Positions 1 to 8,293 are shown, counted from the stretch's first letter. The stretch is DNA of 8,768 nucleotides from Candidatus Altarchaeum sp. (GCA_018260755.1 JAGTWP010000055.1:1-8768), one strand, 5' to 3'. Notes: generated from the sequence alone by a model not told the origin. Numbers and translations are program-made.

Positions 1-533
1 TTGGTTGCAATGGCTGCACGGCTTTTCACAGGGTTGGTGGCCAAAAACAAGTAGTGGAATTTGCAGAACTGCTCAAAAAAAATTTAGATATTGAGATTAC
101 AAACTTGTGTGTTGCACGCCAGTGCGGAAAGGAACTCGTTGAAGACGCATTAAATGAAGTTATAAAAGGATGCGATGCTGTTATTTCGCTTGCCTGCGGT
201 GCAGGAGTTCAGCAAATCGCAGAAATTTATGAAACAATTCCTGTTTATCCTGCAAATGATACATTTTTGGTCGGAATTGAAAACAGGAAAGAAGAAAAAC
301 TTGTTGAGGTCTGCAGGGGATGTGGAGATTGCATTTTGGGGGAAACCGTAGGAATATGCCCAAAAACAAGATGTAAAAAGGGATTATTAAACGGACCCTG
401 CGCAGGTGTTCATGACGGATTATGCGAATTAAGCACAAATGAAAATAAAATACCCTGTGCGTGGATAGAAATTTGTAATAAAATGGTTAAGATGGGAATG
501 AAAGATAAACTTTTGGAAATAAGGATGCCATGA
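1..533 (+). CDS. metV: MetV-like methylenetetrahydrofolate reductase C-terminal (cysteine-rich) subunit, 5' truncated
   Basis: The reading frame is already open at the window edge (first full codon at base 3) and encodes 176 residues before TGA. The GTG at base 54 is internal: the codons before it read GCNGCTAFHRVGGQKQV, which matches the N-terminal C-x-x-C and GG-K region of the MTHFR_C/MetV family, so some tens of residues are missing upstream. Further family marks are the cysteine cluster CRGCGDCILGETVGICPK, then LLNGPCAGVHDGLCEL and PCAWIEI near the end, which correspond to the usual KGLLNGPCGG...G.CE and PC.W motifs. MetV proteins bind metal or Fe-S through these cysteines and partner with MetF to feed electrons into methylene-tetrahydrofolate reduction in the cytoplasm. 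The partner metF lies at 1655, separated from it by thyX. The family call is secure; the electron donor cannot be read from the sequence. Confidence 0.88.
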   Translation, partial: GCNGCTAFHRVGGQKQVVEFAELLKKNLDIEITNLCVARQCGKELVEDALNEVIKGCDAVISLACGAGVQQIAEIYETIPVYPANDTFLVGIENRKEEKLVEVCRGCGDCILGETVGICPKTRCKKGLLNGPCAGVHDGLCELSTNENKIPCAWIEICNKMVKMGMKDKLLEIRMP

Positions 534-544
534 GTTAATGATAG

Positions 545-554
545 TATAAAAATT
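545..554 (+). promoter_or_regulatory. TATA-like box upstream of thyX
   Basis: TATAAAAATT is centred about 36 bases before the thyX ATG in the 51-base gap after metV. An archaeal start site 25-27 bases downstream would leave a leader of about 10 bases. This suggests thyX can be transcribed on its own as well as from any promoter upstream of metV. It rests on motif and spacing only, in AT-rich DNA where such matches arise by chance. Confidence 0.4.
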
Positions 555-584
555 AAAAAAATTAAATCTAAAATTCAAAGTAAA

Positions 585-1454
585 ATGTCCGAAGGAATTT
601 CAGTCAGGATTATAAAACCAACAGTATGGAATTTTGAAGTTGTAAACGGAGAAAATGCATTTAAAGAAGTAGTATATTCTGCGAGGGTTTCGGGAGTTCC
701 TGATGTGGTAAAGGACGATCAGGTATTTTCCATGCTCGTTGAAAACGATTACGGTTCTGCATTAGAACACATAATAATAAAATTTGACCTGAAGATGTCC
801 AAAGGCAATGCACCTGAGTTTTTAGAGCATCGTTTGGTAAGTCATAGCGGATATTCAACGAGATATATAGAAGTTAGCAAAGGGATAGATAAAGATAGCG
901 AAGGTTACGAAGTAATTGTGCCATTACATTTATTAAGTGATGAATATAAAGACGAAACCATGAGAACAATAACTGAAAATTTAAGGGCTGCCATATCTGC
1001 ATACAGAAAAATAAATAAAGGCGGCGTTCCGAGAGAAATTGCCAGATATGTTCTGCCTTTTGCGATTGCCGCCGGAACATATCATGTAACAATAAATTTA
1101 AGGTCGCTGTTAAATTTTTTAGGACTACGATTATGCGTAAGGGCATCACCTGAAATCAGGGCAATTGCTTCGCAGATATACTTTGCTTTAACTGAAAAAC
1201 TACCTCAATTGAAAGGTCTGATAGGATGCAGGGGATTTATGAGGGGTTGCTGTCCCGAAAGCAATGTAACAGGAGTAAGAACCGGAAAACAAATAAAGTC
1301 ATATCCGGTTTGCATATTTAAATCCCCCGAAAGCGAAATTTACATTCCGACAATAAAGGAAATGCGAAATAATGAAAAAGTTATTAAATTTGATAAAGAA
1401 AAAGCAGTAAAATCACAGGAAATTTTATTTAAAAAATGGGCGGAATGGGAATAA
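585..1454 (+). CDS. thyX: Flavin-dependent thymidylate synthase ThyX, with variant signature motif and C-terminal extension
   Basis: 289 residues, ATG start in the context AGTAAAATG with no Shine-Dalgarno. ThyX methylates dUMP to dTMP using methylene-tetrahydrofolate, FAD and NAD(P)H, releasing tetrahydrofolate. Family marks in order: SALEH at 58-62, the signature EHRLVSHSGYSTRY at 81-94, PREIARYVLPF at 149-159, and the substrate-binding block NLRSLLNFLGLRL (171-183) followed by SPEIRAIA. The signature departs from the usual RHRxxSxNExSxRY: Glu81 replaces the first Arg, Ser88 the Asn and Gly89 the Glu, while the S-x-R-Y half is kept. The protein exceeds the usual 220-250 residues because of a tail of about 75 residues after position 210, with cysteines at 215, 222, 223 and 243. 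A shorter Cys/Pro tail (C..G.CPEG..) is known in other ThyX proteins. It lies between metV and metF, which use the same folate substrate. Family call firm; activity of the variant motif is not certain. Confidence 0.9.
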   Translation: MSEGISVRIIKPTVWNFEVVNGENAFKEVVYSARVSGVPDVVKDDQVFSMLVENDYGSALEHIIIKFDLKMSKGNAPEFLEHRLVSHSGYSTRYIEVSKGIDKDSEGYEVIVPLHLLSDEYKDETMRTITENLRAAISAYRKINKGGVPREIARYVLPFAIAAGTYHVTINLRSLLNFLGLRLCVRASPEIRAIASQIYFALTEKLPQLKGLIGCRGFMRGCCPESNVTGVRTGKQIKSYPVCIFKSPESEIYIPTIKEMRNNEKVIKFDKEKAVKSQEILFKKWAEWE

Positions 1455-1461
1455 ACAAAGA

Positions 1462-1527
1462 ATGGAACAAGATAACGGATTAGTTGTATTTCAGGGAAAC
1501 AAAACCAGAAGAAAAAGTAAAAAATAG
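1462..1527 (+). pseudogene. Probable remnant N-terminus of a BRO-N / phage antirepressor-type protein
   Basis: A 21-codon ORF starts 8 bases after the thyX stop and reads MEQDNGLVVFQGNKTRRK before ending SKK-stop. The stretch LVVFQG.K.RRK closely resembles the first residues of BRO-N/antirepressor and RhuM-like proteins, which typically begin with LVVFQGKKIRR and continue with a W-x-x-x-x-W-F block. That continuation is missing in all frames of the next 100 bases, so this looks like the stub of a deleted or degraded phage- or plasmid-type gene rather than a working one. The match is short and recognised from memory of the family, so a chance peptide remains possible. Confidence 0.35.
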
Positions 1528-1570
1528 AGAGTAAAAAATCCGGAAAGGGAACTAATAAATAATTAGAAAT

Positions 1571-1647
1571 AAATTTAAAATATAAAATTTAACTTTGAAT
1601 AAATTTAAACATCTAAAAATTTAAAATTTAAAACATAAAATAAATTT
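1571..1647 (+). promoter_or_regulatory. AAATTT-rich metF upstream region with candidate TATA element
   Basis: Six copies of the palindrome AAATTT begin at 1571, 1585, 1601, 1617, 1624 and 1642. The stretch 1598-1656 contains no G at all, so no Shine-Dalgarno can exist before the metF ATG. TTTAAAATTT at 1620-1629 is centred about 31 bases before that ATG and could act as a TATA box for a nearly leaderless transcript; TATAAAATTT at 1581-1590 is a second candidate. The palindromes may only reflect extreme AT richness. The rest of the 1528-1654 gap shows nothing else recognisable. Confidence 0.35.
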
Positions 1648-1654
1648 AATTAAA

Positions 1655-2602
1655 ATGAGTTTGTTAAGGGAAAATTTTAACAGGAAATTTATCGCAACTG
1701 GAGAAGTAAGCCCTCCGCCGTGTCCCGACAAGACAGTATTTGCACACGAAGTTGAGGGAATGAAACCATTGATGGGAAGAATTTTGGGTGTAAATGTCGT
1801 TGACGGTCCCGGAGGAAGAGTGCTAATGTCATCACTTGGAGCAAGTATTTATATGATTCAACACGGCGTTGAGCCGATACTCGAGCAGGTTGTCAGAGAT
1901 AAAAACAGTGTTGCATTACAAAACGATTTGCTTAGTGCGGCAATATTCGGAATAGAAAATGTGCTTTCAATTACAGGAGACCATCCCGCATGTTTGGCAT
2001 CAGACAATCCAAAATCAAAGCCGGTTTATGATATGGACTCAACGACACTGATCGTTATGCTGAAAAAATTAAACGAAGGAAAATTATGGAATGGAAAGGA
2101 CACAAATTATGAAAACAAAAATTTAAATGCAAAGACAAATTTCTTCATCGGAGCAAGTTTAAGCCCGACTTCATCGCCGCTTGACGGAGAAATTTATAAA
2201 GTTAAGAGAAAATTAATTGCAGGATGTGATTTCTTTCAGACGCAGGGAGTATTCAGCATAGATCCGATAACAAATTTTCTAAATTTATACGAAAAAACAA
2301 TAGGTGAAAAAATAGCCGACAAAGTTCTTATCGGAATCGTTCCGATATGGAGTTATGGTATGTTTAAATATTTACTTACTTTGCCGGGAATAGTTGTCGG
2401 TGAAAAATTTACGAATGAAATAAATGAGGCAAGGAAAAAGCAAAAAGAAACGGGACAAAAAGGTCTTATTGAAGAAGCAGGAGTAAATTTATGTGTTGAT
2501 TTAATTGACAAAATCAAAAGTTCGGGCGTTAAAGGTGTTCATATAATGCCTGTCGGGAATTTGCACGCAATGAAGGAAATTATGGATAAAGCGGGATTGT
2601 GA
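1655..2602 (+). CDS. metF: 5,10-methylenetetrahydrofolate reductase, catalytic flavoprotein subunit
   Basis: 315 residues, a normal MetF length, with ATG in the context TTAAAATG. It is a TIM-barrel FAD enzyme that reduces methylene-tetrahydrofolate to methyl-tetrahydrofolate in the cytoplasm. Visible family marks: ATGEVSPPP (residues 14-22), whose Glu corresponds to the conserved catalytic acid near the N-terminus; VLSITGDHP, the folate/FAD-binding LTGD.P segment; KPVYDMDST, typical of the acetogen-type MetF group; FFIGASLSPT and DFFQTQGVFS, matching the G...P and F-x-Q-T-Q strands; and a C-terminal helix starting VKGVHIMPVGN. It pairs with MetV upstream rather than with a fused C-terminal domain. 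With CdhC in the same window, a role in the methyl branch of the acetyl-CoA pathway is likely, though supply of methyl groups for methionine is also possible. T-rich tracts follow the stop. Confidence 0.93.
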   Translation: MSLLRENFNRKFIATGEVSPPPCPDKTVFAHEVEGMKPLMGRILGVNVVDGPGGRVLMSSLGASIYMIQHGVEPILEQVVRDKNSVALQNDLLSAAIFGIENVLSITGDHPACLASDNPKSKPVYDMDSTTLIVMLKKLNEGKLWNGKDTNYENKNLNAKTNFFIGASLSPTSSPLDGEIYKVKRKLIAGCDFFQTQGVFSIDPITNFLNLYEKTIGEKIADKVLIGIVPIWSYGMFKYLLTLPGIVVGEKFTNEINEARKKQKETGQKGLIEEAGVNLCVDLIDKIKSSGVKGVHIMPVGNLHAMKEIMDKAGL

Positions 2603-2606
2603 GAAA

Positions 2607-2674
2607 TTTTTTATTTCCAAATGTTGCATAAGCGTGTTCTATAACTAAAAATACTCTCTTTTATTCTTTTATTT
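2607..2674 (+). terminator. T-rich termination region after metF
   Basis: A T6 run starts 5 bases after the metF stop (2607-2612), and a second pyrimidine tract, CTCTTTTATTCTTTTATTT, lies at 2656-2674. There is no hairpin before either, which suits archaeal intrinsic termination on T tracts. The remaining gap up to the purL promoter holds only a weak 4-bp hairpin (ACCG/CGGT, 2679-2691). Confidence 0.45.
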
Positions 2675-2726
2675 AATGACCGATAAGCGGTGTGACATGT
2701 GTTTCTATTAGTTTTTCTTTCTGAAT

Positions 2727-2736
2727 TTTATAAATA
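2727..2736 (+). promoter_or_regulatory. TATA-like box upstream of purL
   Basis: TTTATAAATA is close to the archaeal TATA consensus and stands out in its surroundings. Transcription would start about 2757-2763, leaving a leader of roughly 45 bases. A weaker candidate, TTTTAAAAG at about 2765-2773, would give a leader of about 10 bases. No purine-binding riboswitch fold was recognised in the leader. Confidence 0.45.
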
Positions 2737-2804
2737 TTTATGGTTAGTTAAATTTCAAATCAAATTTTAAAAGTAATGAAATTTTAATTAGCAATACTCA
2801 TAAA

Positions 2805-5800
2805 ATGCAAAATTTCATATTTGTCGGTTTTAAGGAAATACTAAAGGACGCAAATGCGGAAAATTTAAGAAATAAGATTTTGGACGATTTACATTTAAAT
2901 TCTGAAGGTATAAAAACAATAAAAATAGTTGATTGCTATCTGATTGATGGGGACTTAAGCGAAAACGATTTAAATTTTATTGGAAAAAATGTATTTGCTG
3001 ATAAAATCACACAAAATTTGACAATCAATGAATCTTTTACAACAAATTTTGATAAGTTAATCTGGGTTTCTTTCAAACCAGGAGTTACGGACAATGTCGG
3101 AAAAACAGCAAAAGAGGCAATTATAGATGTAATTACTAAGGATGTTGATGTCTATGTTGATGTCTATGTTGATGTCTATACTTCAAAGCAATACTTCTTT
3201 ATAGGAAATTTAAGCAAAGAAGATGCGGTAAAAATTTCAAAATATTTATCAAATGAATTGATTCAGGACAGCAAAATTTTTGAAAAAGGGGAAGCTGATT
3301 TAAAACAAATTAAAGCACCAAAAGTTTTACTTAAAGAAAAAATTAAAGTTGATGAGCTCAATTTAAATGTGAGTGATGAGGAATTGATGAATATTAGCAA
3401 AGAAAGGGTGCTTGCTCTGAATTTGGAAGAAATGAATGCAATAAGGGCTCATTTTAAAAAGCAGAACAGAAATCCGACGGATGTTGAAATTGAATGTCTT
3501 GCACAGACATGGAGCGAACACTGCAAGCATAAAATTTTTAACGCTGAAATTTATTACAATGAATATGGAAAAGAGGAAAAGATCGAATCATTATTTAAGA
3601 AATTTGTTTTTAAAGTAACAGAAGAAATAAAAAGGACTAATACGAGAAGGAATGAAGACCTGATTTCAGTATTTTCCGATAATGCGGGAATTGTGAAATT
3701 TAACGAAAATTTTAACATATCAATTAAGGTTGAAACACATAATGCCCCGTCCGCATTAGACCCTTATGGTGGTGCATTGACTGGAATTCTGGGAGTAAAC
3801 AGGGATATAATGGGCGTCGGATTAGGGGCGAAGCCAATAGCGAATACAGATGTTTTCTGTTTTGCAAATCCATTTTATGACAAAAATTTGCCGGTAAAAA
3901 TTTTGCATCCCAAACGGATATTTGAAGGCGTTGTTAAAGGTATAGAAGACGGAGGAAACAAAAGTGGAATCCCGACTGTAAACGGAGCGATTGTTTTTGA
4001 TGACAGATTTCTTGGAAAACCATTAGTTTTTTGTGGAACAATAGGGATAATGCCTGCAAAACTAAAATTTAAAGACGAAGAAAAGGAAACACATATTAAA
4101 GAAATTTATAATGGTGATTATGTGGTAATGGTTGGCGGAAGGGTTGGCAAAGACGGAATTCACGGGGCAACATTTTCATCGGAAGAATTCCATGAAGGAA
4201 GTCCTGCAACTGCTGTTCAGATTGGCGACCCAATAACCCAAAAGAAGATGCTTGATTTTTTGATGGATGCGAGAGCTCATTTGCTTTACAGGGCAATTAC
4301 CGATAACGGAGCAGGGGGATTAAGCAGTTCAATCGGGGAGTTGGCAGAAATAAGCAACGGATGTGAAATTGAGCTTGCTCATGTTCCGCTAAAATATGCT
4401 GGTTTGCAGCCATGGGAAATTTTAGTAAGTGAATCACAGGAAAGAATGAGTGTTGTTTTGCCACCGGAAAACATGCAAAAATTTTTAGACATTGCAGAGA
4501 AATACGATGTTGAAGCAACGATTGTCGGAAAATTTACAAACACAGGAAAATTTGTCGCTTTTTATGAAGGCGAAGTTGTTGCAAACATAGATATTAAATT
4601 TTTGCACAAAGGCGTTCCCAAGATGAAGTTAAAGGCGGAATGGAATGAAATAAATTATCCAGATGAAGAACACAATGAAAAATACGCAGAGAAGGAAATA
4701 AATGTTGAAAATTTAAAAGAAATTTTAAAGAAAATTTTATCTCGGCTTAATATTGCAAGCAAAGAAGGTATTATAAGAAAATACGACCATGAAGTTCAGG
4801 GCGGAAGTATAATAAAACCAGTTATGGGAAAAAACAGGGACGGATTGAGTGATGGTGCAGTAATAAAACCGATACTTGCTCGTAAGAAGGGTGTTGTAAT
4901 TGCGTGTGGAATTTGCCCGAAATTTAGCGATATTGATACCTATTGGATGGCTGCAAATGCCGTTGATGAAGCAATAAGGAACATTATTTGCTGCGGTGGA
5001 AATTTTGAAGACATTTCTTTGGTTGATAATTTCTGTTGGCCGTCTCCGCTTCATGATAAATTTAAGGCGGCACAACTTGTAAGAGCATGTAAAGGACTTT
5101 ACGATACCTGTCTGGCTTATGAGACGCCTTTAATTTCGGGAAAAGATAGCATGTCAATTGACTATACGGGAAAGGATGAAAAGGGAAATGTTGTTAAAAT
5201 TTCAGGGGTTCCGACGCTGTTAATTACTGCAATAAGTAAAATTGATGATGTTCGTAAATCAATGACTGCCGAGTTCAAAAATACAAAGGATTTGATTTAT
5301 ATTGTAGGATTGACAGATGATGAATTAGGAGCAGGTGAATTTTATGCGGAATTTAGTTTGACCGGAAAAAATGTCCCAAAAATAAATTTTGAAATTTCAC
5401 GAAAAATTTACGAAAAGATAAGCAAAGCAATAGCTCAAAATTTAATTGAATCATGTCATGACTGCTCTGACGGAGGGCTTGCTGTTGCACTTGCAGAAAG
5501 TGCATTTTCAGGGGATGTCGGAATTGAAGTGAATCTGGAAAATGTTGTGGTTGCTGGTTTATTGAGCAATAATAAAATTTTATTTTCAGAGTCCGCAAGC
5601 AGATTTATTGTTAGTATTAAAGAGGAAAATAGGGGGAAATTTGAAAATTTAATGAATGAGGGTAAAGGGATAAATTTTGCTAATATAGGGTTTGTGAGAA
5701 AGGATAGAAAATTTATAGTTAAGGGAAATGAAGGAAAAGAAGAAAAGGAAATAATTAATGTGAATATTGAGGAATTAAGAGACGCGTGGAAAACTCCCTT

Positions 5801-5807
5801 AAACTGA
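2805..5807 (+). CDS. purL: Phosphoribosylformylglycinamidine synthase, PurS-PurL fusion without glutaminase domain
   Basis: 1000 residues, ATG in the context CATAAAATG. The enzyme makes FGAM from FGAR, ATP and ammonia, the fourth step of purine synthesis. Residues 1 to about 165 form the PurS-like N-terminal region, about 190-245 the linker, and the rest the paired ATP-binding/AIRS-type halves. Key motifs: TWSEHCKH (235-242) with the conserved His; SDNAG (291-295); KVETHNAPSALDPYGGA (308-324); GGRVGKDGIHGATFSSE (444-460); TDNGAGGLSS (499-508); SGKDSMS (about 778-784); and SCHDCSDGGLAVALAES (about 883-899). It ends where the large PurL of E. coli type (about 1300 residues) would continue into a glutamine amidotransferase, so ammonia must come from a separate PurQ, not present here. 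It matches the PurSL fusion class rather than small PurL (about 600-750 residues). Odd point: a VDVY triplet repeat at 114-125. It is followed by convergent cdhC. Confidence 0.95.
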   Translation: MQNFIFVGFKEILKDANAENLRNKILDDLHLNSEGIKTIKIVDCYLIDGDLSENDLNFIGKNVFADKITQNLTINESFTTNFDKLIWVSFKPGVTDNVGKTAKEAIIDVITKDVDVYVDVYVDVYTSKQYFFIGNLSKEDAVKISKYLSNELIQDSKIFEKGEADLKQIKAPKVLLKEKIKVDELNLNVSDEELMNISKERVLALNLEEMNAIRAHFKKQNRNPTDVEIECLAQTWSEHCKHKIFNAEIYYNEYGKEEKIESLFKKFVFKVTEEIKRTNTRRNEDLISVFSDNAGIVKFNENFNISIKVETHNAPSALDPYGGALTGILGVNRDIMGVGLGAKPIANTDVFCFANPFYDKNLPVKILHPKRIFEGVVKGIEDGGNKSGIPTVNGAIVFDDRFLGKPLVFCGTIGIMPAKLKFKDEEKETHIKEIYNGDYVVMVGGRVGKDGIHGATFSSEEFHEGSPATAVQIGDPITQKKMLDFLMDARAHLLYRAITDNGAGGLSSSIGELAEISNGCEIELAHVPLKYAGLQPWEILVSESQERMSVVLPPENMQKFLDIAEKYDVEATIVGKFTNTGKFVAFYEGEVVANIDIKFLHKGVPKMKLKAEWNEINYPDEEHNEKYAEKEINVENLKEILKKILSRLNIASKEGIIRKYDHEVQGGSIIKPVMGKNRDGLSDGAVIKPILARKKGVVIACGICPKFSDIDTYWMAANAVDEAIRNIICCGGNFEDISLVDNFCWPSPLHDKFKAAQLVRACKGLYDTCLAYETPLISGKDSMSIDYTGKDEKGNVVKISGVPTLLITAISKIDDVRKSMTAEFKNTKDLIYIVGLTDDELGAGEFYAEFSLTGKNVPKINFEISRKIYEKISKAIAQNLIESCHDCSDGGLAVALAESAFSGDVGIEVNLENVVVAGLLSNNKILFSESASRFIVSIKEENRGKFENLMNEGKGINFANIGFVRKDRKFIVKGNEGKEEKEIINVNIEELRDAWKTPLN
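3144..3179 (+). repeat. Perfect 12-bp tandem repeat, three copies, inside purL
   Basis: GTTGATGTCTAT occurs three times head to tail (3144-3155, 3156-3167, 3168-3179) and encodes VDVY x3 at residues 114-125 of the PurS-like region. The unit is a multiple of three, so gain or loss of copies keeps the frame. Identical third-position bases in all copies point to recent duplication by slippage. Confidence 0.9.
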
Positions 5808-5877
5808 TAATAAAAACAGCCATGCAGGAATGAATAAAATTTTCACCTTTTTACCATCGCTCATATACCTATGAACA

Positions 5878-5960
5878 TTGAACTTTTGTGTTTTGCATTT
5901 TTAGTGTATTTTACTTAATTTATATTTGAATTTGTGCTTGAATTTTAAAATTTGCAAAAC
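5878..5960. repeat. Imperfect inverted repeat in the purL-cdhC convergent gap
   Basis: GTTTTGCA at 5890-5897 is the exact reverse complement of TGCAAAAC at 5953-5960, and the flanks partly extend the match (TTGAACTTTTG at 5878-5888 against CAAAACTTCAA ending at 5965, one mismatch in 11). The spacer is over 50 bases, so a hairpin would be weak. The 225-base gap (5808-6032) holds no convincing gene; the pyrimidine-rich stretch TTTTCACCTTTTTACC at 5840-5855 may end purL transcription. Confidence 0.3.
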
Positions 5961-6007
5961 TTCAACAATGTGTTTATCTCTATCAGTGAAAATCAACATA
6001 AGAGCGA

Positions 6008-6030
6008 TTAAAAATTTAGAATAAAAATTT
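6008..6030 (-). terminator. T-rich tract after cdhC
   Basis: Read on the - strand, the bases just past the cdhC stop are T-rich: two T5 runs, in TTTTTATTCTAAATTTTTAA. No hairpin precedes them. The position directly after the stop supports archaeal-style intrinsic termination. Confidence 0.4.
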
Positions 6031-6032
6031 CA

Positions 6033-7412
6033 CTATCTCTTTTTCACAACCGCACTTTCCGCATCAATTCGGACATCCTTTAACAAAATTTTTGTATAAC
6101 TTACTGACGGAAACGGAACATCCAAAAATATATCCGGAAGTTCTGTTTCTTCCTCCTTTTCTTTCTCTGCTTCCTCCCACCTCTTTACTATCGGATGCTC
6201 CTTCTCTTTTAAAAAATTTTTCAGCTCATCAAGGTTATGGACATCCTTTTCTGTCGGAATTTTATCAGCTAATTCCGGTGGTATTGCCTCCTTTATTCTT
6301 TCCTTTAAAGTCGAAGGAAGCCAGACCATTCTGTTCCACCCTCCGTCCGCCGAAAGAAATTTTCTTGAATAAAACCACTGAATACCTATTCCAAGAAAGC
6401 CCTCTATTTGCTGTCCTCCTCCAGCCTGCGCTGCTAATTGTGAGAATTTCATTCCGTTAGGGGATGCACCGTTAAAATTTCTATCAACCACACCTATTCC
6501 GTCAACCTCCGGAATGTAAAAACCAATTGATTCAAAACACCCGCAACTTGTATGCACGGACTCAAACATAGTATATAAGGCAACCTGCTGAAATTTTCCG
6601 TTAGAATACTTTTGAACCGCTGCATTTGATCCTGTCCATATTCCTTTTACAGCATCTAAACATTCTCCTTTCGGAATCGGAAAATTTGCTCCTTCTGGAT
6701 CAATCTTTGCCGCTGCTCTTGCATCAAGCCAGGAAATTGCACCACACAGTGAAATTCTTTCTGGAGAAATAATACAAACATGCCCCGGCGCAAAGGACTG
6801 ACAAAGCGTGCAGCCATAAAATGTATCAATATCTTCATCCTTCATCCCCTTTGTTTTCATATCTCTTGCACTATATACCTCAACCGCCTTTTTGTGAAAC
6901 TCTATAACATCCTGCTCATTTGTAATTAAAGTGCATCGGATTTTTTCTATAAAAGGGAAGTGTTTTTTCAGTAAAGACATGATTACAATTCCGATATGTT
7001 CAAATTTAAGTCCTTTTTCTTTGTCTGCTTTACTTATTCTGCACCATATATCATACCTTTGATTTAAATGCATCATCCCCTGAATGTTATTTATAAAATC
7101 GTGAATTTTTCTCTCAAAAATACCTTCCAAATCAACTTCAACCTTTTCGCCATAAACCTCTACAAATATTCCGAAAGGAATGGTTTCTCCTCCGTTATAT
7201 TCTGGAATATCCTTTCCGATTAATTTAAAACCATTGTTAACAGTAATATCGTCCTTTCCGACAACCCTAATCAATTCAAATTTAAATTTTACTTTAGGTC
7301 CCCCTAATTCCAAAAACATATCAGGACCTCTAATCCTTTCACCTTCATACGAAGGACCCACATCAACCGGAAGTTTCTTTAAGTCCAAATCACAATTTTT
7401 AAATTCATTCAT
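6033..7412 (-). CDS. cdhC: CO dehydrogenase/acetyl-CoA synthase subunit beta (acetyl-CoA synthase, archaeal-length CdhC)
   Basis: 459 residues from the ATG at 7412. The open frame extends to a TTG at 7445, but the added 11 residues lie in repeat DNA and ATG has a TATA-like box at the right distance, so ATG is preferred. CdhC condenses a corrinoid-bound methyl group, CO and CoA to acetyl-CoA at a Ni-Ni-[4Fe-4S] A-cluster. All six ligands are present: Cys201, 204, 213, 223, 290 and 292, in GCTLCQSFAPGHVC, ISLCG and SCGCFES. Their spacing (3, 9, 10, 67, 2) equals that of known acetyl-CoA synthases. Other marks: YEGERIRGPDMFLELGGPK near the N-terminus, GFLGIGIQWF, GGWNRMVWLPSTLKERI, and the family ending KILLKDVRIDAE. 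The N-terminal CO-dehydrogenase-docking domain of bacterial AcsB (about 730 residues) is absent. No other Cdh subunit gene is in the window. An acidic/lysine-rich linker (about 410-425) precedes the C-terminal strand. Confidence 0.95.
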   Translation of the reverse strand: MNEFKNCDLDLKKLPVDVGPSYEGERIRGPDMFLELGGPKVKFKFELIRVVGKDDITVNNGFKLIGKDIPEYNGGETIPFGIFVEVYGEKVEVDLEGIFERKIHDFINNIQGMMHLNQRYDIWCRISKADKEKGLKFEHIGIVIMSLLKKHFPFIEKIRCTLITNEQDVIEFHKKAVEVYSARDMKTKGMKDEDIDTFYGCTLCQSFAPGHVCIISPERISLCGAISWLDARAAAKIDPEGANFPIPKGECLDAVKGIWTGSNAAVQKYSNGKFQQVALYTMFESVHTSCGCFESIGFYIPEVDGIGVVDRNFNGASPNGMKFSQLAAQAGGGQQIEGFLGIGIQWFYSRKFLSADGGWNRMVWLPSTLKERIKEAIPPELADKIPTEKDVHNLDELKNFLKEKEHPIVKRWEEAEKEKEEETELPDIFLDVPFPSVSYTKILLKDVRIDAESAVVKKR

Positions 7413-7546: not shown

Positions 7547-8293
7547 ATGTCAAAAATAAATTTTGCCGGAATTGTTGACTATTCATCACTTGATTTTCCG
7601 GGGCATGTTTGTGCGGTAATATATCTTTGCGGATGCCCGTACAGATGTCCCTGGTGCCAGAATGCCGATGTTGCACTCTCAAAGTCAGAAACATGCAAAC
7701 CAAAGGAAATTTTCGAAATAATAGAAAATCTAAAGGAAAATTTTATTATTGATAGTGTAACGATTACAGGCGGAGAACCATTAATGCAAAATGAGACTTA
7801 TGAATTATGTCAAAAAATAAAGAGCGAAACAAATTTATTGCTGAAAATTGACCATAACGGATTTTATCCTGAAATATTACAAAATTTTCTACCTTTGCTT
7901 GATTTTGTTAGCGTTGATATAAAGGCACCATTCAATGAAAAATACAAAATATCAACACAAAGAAATGACTGGAAAAATGTTGTTGAGAAAGTTAAAAAGA
8001 CATGTGAAATTTTATCGCTTTGGAACAAAAAAAAGGAAGCAAGAACAACAGCTGTGCCAACCTTGATAGACGAAGACGAGATTGTTGAAATAGCGAAGGC
8101 GATAAATAAATATAAATTTTCCTTTTATACATTAAATGAATTCAGAGCGGAGAGAACGCTTGATGAGAAATTTCAAAGCATAACGCCATATTCTTATGAA
8201 AAGATGCTCAATTTGGGAAAAATAGCAAAGCAACATCTTGATAACATTGATGTCTATGTTGTAACATCAAAAAAAGGAAAGGAAAAAATTTAA
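7547..8293 (+). CDS. Radical SAM glycyl-radical-enzyme activase, NrdG2-like (anaerobic ribonucleotide reductase activating protein type)
   Basis: 248 residues, ATG in the context ATAAAAATG. The N-terminus (FAGIVDYSSLDFPGHVCAVI, 6-25) followed by CGCPYRCPWCQN has the radical-SAM CX3CX2C motif at Cys30, Cys34 and Cys37, which binds the [4Fe-4S] cluster that cleaves S-adenosylmethionine. TITGGEPLM (72-80) is the SAM-binding GGEP motif, and DFVSVDIKAPF and RTTAVPTLIDEDE are typical later strands of the NrdG2/activase group. Such proteins usually place a glycyl radical on a partner, often the class III reductase NrdD. No partner is in this window, so the substrate is unknown; related proteins in archaea are commonly annotated by family only. 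It is short, with no extra ferredoxin domain. It is divergent from cdhC across 134 bases, which could allow joint control. Confidence 0.85.
   Translation: MSKINFAGIVDYSSLDFPGHVCAVIYLCGCPYRCPWCQNADVALSKSETCKPKEIFEIIENLKENFIIDSVTITGGEPLMQNETYELCQKIKSETNLLLKIDHNGFYPEILQNFLPLLDFVSVDIKAPFNEKYKISTQRNDWKNVVEKVKKTCEILSLWNKKKEARTTAVPTLIDEDEIVEIAKAINKYKFSFYTLNEFRAERTLDEKFQSITPYSYEKMLNLGKIAKQHLDNIDVYVVTSKKGKEKI

Follow-up and report, generated by a model that had tools for sequence, protein, structure and literature searches.

Candidatus Altiarchaeum hamiconexum, which belongs to the same genus as the organism studied here or is a close relative of it, has been described as using a methanopterin pathway in which a methylene-tetrahydrofolate reductase (MTHFR) replaces Mer, and in which NAD(P)H enzymes of kinds found in methylotrophs or anaerobic methane oxidisers take the place of the F420-dependent dehydrogenase and reductase (PMC4500143). 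The electron donors and acceptors of Altiarchaea were stated to be unknown in the same work. MTHFR and MtdB were found in all Altiarchaeales examined, and folate synthesis genes were reported in the Alti-1 core genome (PMC4975002). A swap of Mer for MetF has also been proposed for ANME-1 and Candidatus Syntrophoarchaeum, in which MetF adjoins MetV (PMC9012536, PMC10322722), and in Syntrophoarchaeum the MetFV genes are grouped with those for HdrA and MvhD. Moorella thermoacetica and Sporomusa ovata have a MetVF-HdrCBA-MvhD complex, with metV and metF adjoining the genes for HdrA, HdrB, HdrC and MvhD (PMC9430772). Methanosarcinaceae carry a MetF-MetV-FolP-FolD-GlyA-PurN cluster, and their MetFV has been inferred to be a biosynthetic folate enzyme (PMC9012536).

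The locus described here shares with Ca. A. hamiconexum a methanopterin branch, a MetF that would serve in place of Mer, a bacterial-type MtdB in place of Mtd and an archaeal CODH/ACS. It resembles ANME-1 and Syntrophoarchaeum in its paired MetF and MetV, methanopterin branch and lack of Mer, but those organisms are methane or alkane oxidisers. Because the replacement of Mer has already been published for Altiarchaeum, the locus is a further member of that arrangement.

The window, meaning the whole 8768-bp stretch that was analysed, is the entire contig C11 of a 1.32-Mb genome (1,319,019 bases in 78 contigs; 85% complete, 0.3% contaminated). Its CdhC is 88% and 84% identical to the proteins of two Ca. 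Altarchaeum MAGs. This sequence comparison places the host in the Ca. Altarchaeum group of uncultured subsurface archaea. An earlier note made from the window alone had supposed an archaeon, and the bacterial host that the note held up as the alternative is ruled out. Because the window ends with the contig, metV is truncated at its 5' end; the full-length MetV of a relative has 206 aa. The earlier note had left thyX and purL unnamed. PurL has about 200 residues ahead of its core and an FGAR-AT linker domain, with no glutaminase domain listed, and resembles a large-type PurL minus the C-terminal part. The NrdG2-type radical SAM gene is a neighbour only and lies outside the pathway. No phage match to the window was found.

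Table 1. Genes of the window, with the evidence for each assignment.
Gene and product	Position	Strand	Evidence
metV, C-terminal ~176 residues, 5' end missing	1..533	+	83.9-bit match to PF12225 (Methylene-tetrahydrofolate reductase C terminal) in the frame spanning bases 3 to 533; 90% identity to congener's full-length MetV
thyX, flanked by metV and metF; FAD-dependent thymidylate synthase	585..1454	+	TIGR02170 over cut-off; congener G003 shares order
metF, divergent methylene-tetrahydropterin reductase, 315 aa	1655..2602	+	PF02219; residues E17, D109, Q197; tree
purL, FGAM synthase, 1000 aa	2805..5807	+	TIGR01736 over cut-off, residues 206-999
cdhC, archaeal CODH/ACS beta subunit (acetyl-CoA synthase), 459 aa	6033..7412	-	TIGR00316 and PRK04456 over cut-off; A-cluster ligands
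NrdG2-type radical SAM activase	7547..8293	+	TIGR02495 over cut-off

The family matches confirmed the MetF and MetV motifs that the earlier note had reported, and MetF (PF02219) is encoded together with MetV (PF12225), as in MetVF-type reductases. MetF scored 89 bits, above the PF02219 gathering score and far under the NCBIfam MTHFR equivalog cut-offs, and is therefore a divergent MTHFR. Alignment showed that E17, D109 and Q197 are conserved; we take these to be the equivalents of the catalytic-site residues E28, D120 and Q183 of E. coli MetF. Single-sequence searches of the PDB returned weak matches only for MetF and none for MetV. In a tree built with no bacterial or Methanosarcina outgroup, the window MetF fell within a 22-row clade (clade A; support 97/95), which includes divergent second copies from two relatives, G014 and G022, on a long branch of unsure placement. 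Both of these genomes have two MetF types (L078 and L079; L081 and L082). One type is encoded with mtdB and Fwd genes, and the other belongs to a separate, strongly divergent metV-metF pair with altered active-site D and Q positions (GEHP; HTR or HTW).

The earlier note's second element, a 459-residue CdhC with intact A-cluster ligands, was also borne out. The protein has this length from ATG (470 residues from an upstream TTG), falls under the cut-offs of bacterial fused-ACS models, and lacks the bacterial N-terminal ACS region. C201, C204, C213, C223, C290, G291 and C292 align with Moorella ACS (3git) and the archaeal chain 9c0s_E, giving a complete A-cluster: four Cys of the 4Fe4S cluster and the CGC motif (C290-G-C292). 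As the note had recognised, cdhC lies on the strand opposite metVF, which rules out an operon link between metF and cdhC. The distance between purL and cdhC is about 9 kb at locus L003, and no purL follows metF in G003. CdhD/E and CdhA are encoded on contig C27 of the same genome. This contig carries tandem CdhA-like genes of 1082 and 909 aa (L066:1679-7669), the second of which reaches 479 bits where the cut-off is 781, and matches Prismane only in part; it may therefore be a divergent or non-catalytic copy.

Other contigs of the genome encode Mch and MtdB (C51, about 0.4 kb apart), Ftr (C71) and RFAP synthase (C72, over cut-off, by a model that also matches in Haloferax and is not exclusive to methanopterin users). 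The genome has the Altiarchaeum-type set of Ftr, Mch, MtdB, MetF and CdhC/D/E, and Mer was found neither in it nor in 28 relatives. It also encodes FolD (PF02882, C54), FolP (dihydropteroate synthase over the TIGR01496 cut-off, plus a TIGR00284 dihydropteroate-synthase-like protein) and GlyA, for which the best matches of solved structure are serine hydroxymethyltransferases from bacteria; folD, folP and glyA all lie on contigs other than that of metF. Formate-THF ligase (Fhs, PF01268) is absent from the genome and its genus (G000-G003), so no known formate/CO2 route to folate was found. The presence of Ftr, Mch, MtdB and RFAP synthase alongside FolD, dihydropteroate synthase and GlyA makes it likely that the genome has two pterin systems, with folate serving biosynthesis and methanopterin the reduction of CO2, and suggests that GlyA, FolD, FolP and ThyX form a separate biosynthetic folate pool. 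The earlier note had looked to the genome for fhs and folate genes as against a methanopterin branch. Of these, the genome has folD and other folate genes together with cdhA/D/E, and also mch and mtdB of the methanopterin branch; fhs and mer were not found. The outcome that the note named as contrary to its view, a full set of methanopterin genes including Mer with other folate enzymes missing, was found only in part: Ftr, Mch and MtdB are there, but Mer is absent and folate enzymes are present.

We consider it probable that MetVF stands in for the missing Mer and reduces methylene-H4MPT to methyl-H4MPT, with folate kept apart and Hdr-linked electrons driving the step. The branch would run from CO2 to formyl-methanofuran and through Ftr, Mch, MtdB and MetVF to the CdhD/E corrinoid protein and CdhC, and the folate pool would be fed from serine. 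Electrons would probably reach MetVF via HdrA(MvhD)-HdrC-HdrB, encoded just upstream in relatives. From gene content, distribution and neighbourhoods we infer which pterin MetVF uses, what donates its electrons, whether it bifurcates and in which direction the flux runs. Weighing against this reading are the FolD and FolP genes, the placing of metF beside thyX in the genus, a clade A MetF in three genomes that have folate enzymes only, and the 85% completeness of the assembly.

The distribution of these genes was compared across the class, in the window's own genome and the 28 relatives. Of the 29 genomes, 22 have one or more of Ftr, Mch and MtdB, and the other seven have none. Fhs was found in 1/22 genomes with methanopterin-branch genes and 5/7 without (Fisher p = 0.001), and CdhD/E in 12/22 and 0/7 (p = 0.02); because the genomes are related and incomplete, these p-values are indicative only. 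The CdhD/E count excludes a weak PF03599 match on the FolP gene in G021 and G024. CdhD/E is thus missing from all seven genomes without the methanopterin branch, the five Fhs carriers included. Clade A MetF is present in 16 genomes that have Ftr, Mch and MtdB together, nine of which lack FolD and Fhs. Three genomes with a clade A MetF (G010, G021 and G024) have folate enzymes and lack Ftr, Mch and MtdB altogether, and membership of the clade is therefore no proof of methanopterin use by itself.

Gene neighbourhoods connect MetF to the methanopterin branch more directly. The metF gene lies no more than about 2 kb from mtdB or mch in ten genomes (G004, G006, G008, G013, G014, G015, G019, G022, G023 and G025), those of G004 and G006 encoding a MetF outside the window clade. 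In G014, a single strand carries mini-metV-metF-mtdB-fwdA-fwdC-fwdD-fwdB-mch, each start overlapping the preceding stop (FwdA and FwdB assigned by family model, FwdC and FwdD from gene order and weak domain matches), and G022 has metF-mtdB-fwdA-fwdC. The G014 run is the strongest evidence that a MetF of the window clade acts in the methanopterin branch. Within the window's genus, metF adjoins thyX and not mtdB. In the congener G003, thyX and metF are separated by BRO-N-like genes (L071:7586-8804), an apparent insertion. G026 has no thyX at metV-metF, and a dCMP deaminase-like ORF (L042:4505-4942, identified by eye) follows metF there; ThyX and this ORF both touch dTMP synthesis.

The thyX and dCMP deaminase-like neighbours speak for the alternative that MetVF is a biosynthetic folate enzyme, with serine giving methylene-H4F through GlyA for purines, dTMP and methyl-H4F, and with the methanopterin branch using an unrecognised reductase. 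GlyA, FolD and FolP are all encoded in the genome, and the Methanosarcinaceae offer a precedent for MetFV beside folate enzymes in a methanopterin archaeon. Methanosarcinaceae retain Mer and cluster their folate genes with MetF, whereas here Mer is absent and the folate genes lie elsewhere. We judge this explanation unlikely, given that Mer is missing from all 29 genomes, that nine relatives keep a clade A MetF without FolD or Fhs, and that the G014 run joins MetVF to MtdB, Fwd and Mch.

MetVF could also take both pterins and serve the acetyl-CoA pathway and folate biosynthesis together. A single metF gene was found in the genome alongside both pterin systems, genomes with methanopterin only and genomes with folate only share this MetF clade, and use of both pterins is already known for MtdA (PMC9012536). 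The second, divergent MetVF of G014 and G022 suggests instead a division of labour where both pools exist, and we regard dual use as improbable. The proposal of the earlier note, that folate brings the methyl group to an archaeal CdhC, draws on MetVF, FolD and FolP sharing a single archaeal genome with CdhC and CdhD/E, but is very improbable and was rejected as the main reading: the genus has no Fhs, Ftr, Mch, MtdB and RFAP synthase are all present in the genome, no genome lacking the methanopterin branch has CdhD/E, five Fhs carriers among them, and the relatives without FolD and Fhs and the G014 run oppose it as well. The methyl carrier is most likely methanopterin, not folate. What stands of the hybrid acetyl-CoA pathway is the combination of MetVF with an archaeal CODH/ACS, folate genes and no Mer; what finds no support is folate as the carrier. 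An archaeal CdhC fed by folate would have been the more surprising result, but the data do not support it.

Under the methanopterin reading, a source of electrons for MetVF is suggested by Hdr genes near metV. The congener G003 has hdrA, hdrC and hdrB, then, about 3 kb on, metV, thyX and metF; G026 has hdrC, hdrB, metV and metF; G012 has hdrA, hdrB and metV; and in G001, hdrA, hdrC and hdrB lie at a contig end. No MetF match was found in G012, where the assembly breaks off metV at an N run and an IS1634 transposase, so the missing MetF may be an assembly gap. HdrA of the Altarchaeum relatives, 1170 aa long, combines two flavin units of the HdrA type with an FlpD/MvhD domain at its C terminus. 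In the first unit, E and K of the bifurcation type align with E356/K409 of 5odc, and these residues mark bifurcating flavins (PMC9430772). This arrangement suggests Hdr-linked electron input to MetVF as in Moorella and Sporomusa, although those systems are bacterial and folate-based with MvhD as a separate gene, whereas MvhD is fused to a double HdrA in the Altarchaeum relatives. For the window's own genome we infer the Hdr link, because the contig ends within metV and the assembly yielded no HdrB, an absence that could be due to the break immediately upstream. The Ca. A. hamiconexum papers describe NAD(P)H-linked enzymes, whereas hdrA-hdrC-hdrB lies upstream of metV in relatives here; across PMC4500143, PMC4975002 and PMC12133352, a set without the original 2014 genome paper, we found no mention of Hdr.

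It is possible, if doubtful, that MetVF, the double-HdrA/MvhD fusion and HdrCB make up a flavin-based electron-bifurcating methylene-H4MPT reductase that couples the reduction of ferredoxin to the methyl branch, and that related families of Altiarchaeota swapped methanopterin for folate around the same MetF. If true, an Hdr-linked MetVF working on methanopterin would be a testable energy-coupling site in autotrophic Altiarchaea. Because the MetF clade spans methanopterin-only, mixed and folate-only genomes, it offers a natural comparison for studying how a reductase changes its pterin.

One family in the comparison (f4: G009, G010, G021, G024 and G028) has Fhs and FolD and lacks Ftr, Mch, MtdB, RFAP synthase and CdhD/E. 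In the papers covered we found no earlier description of folate genes without the methanopterin branch in this sister family. Relatives of the family carry the methanopterin set, and G019 has both; pterin exchange inside the class is possible.
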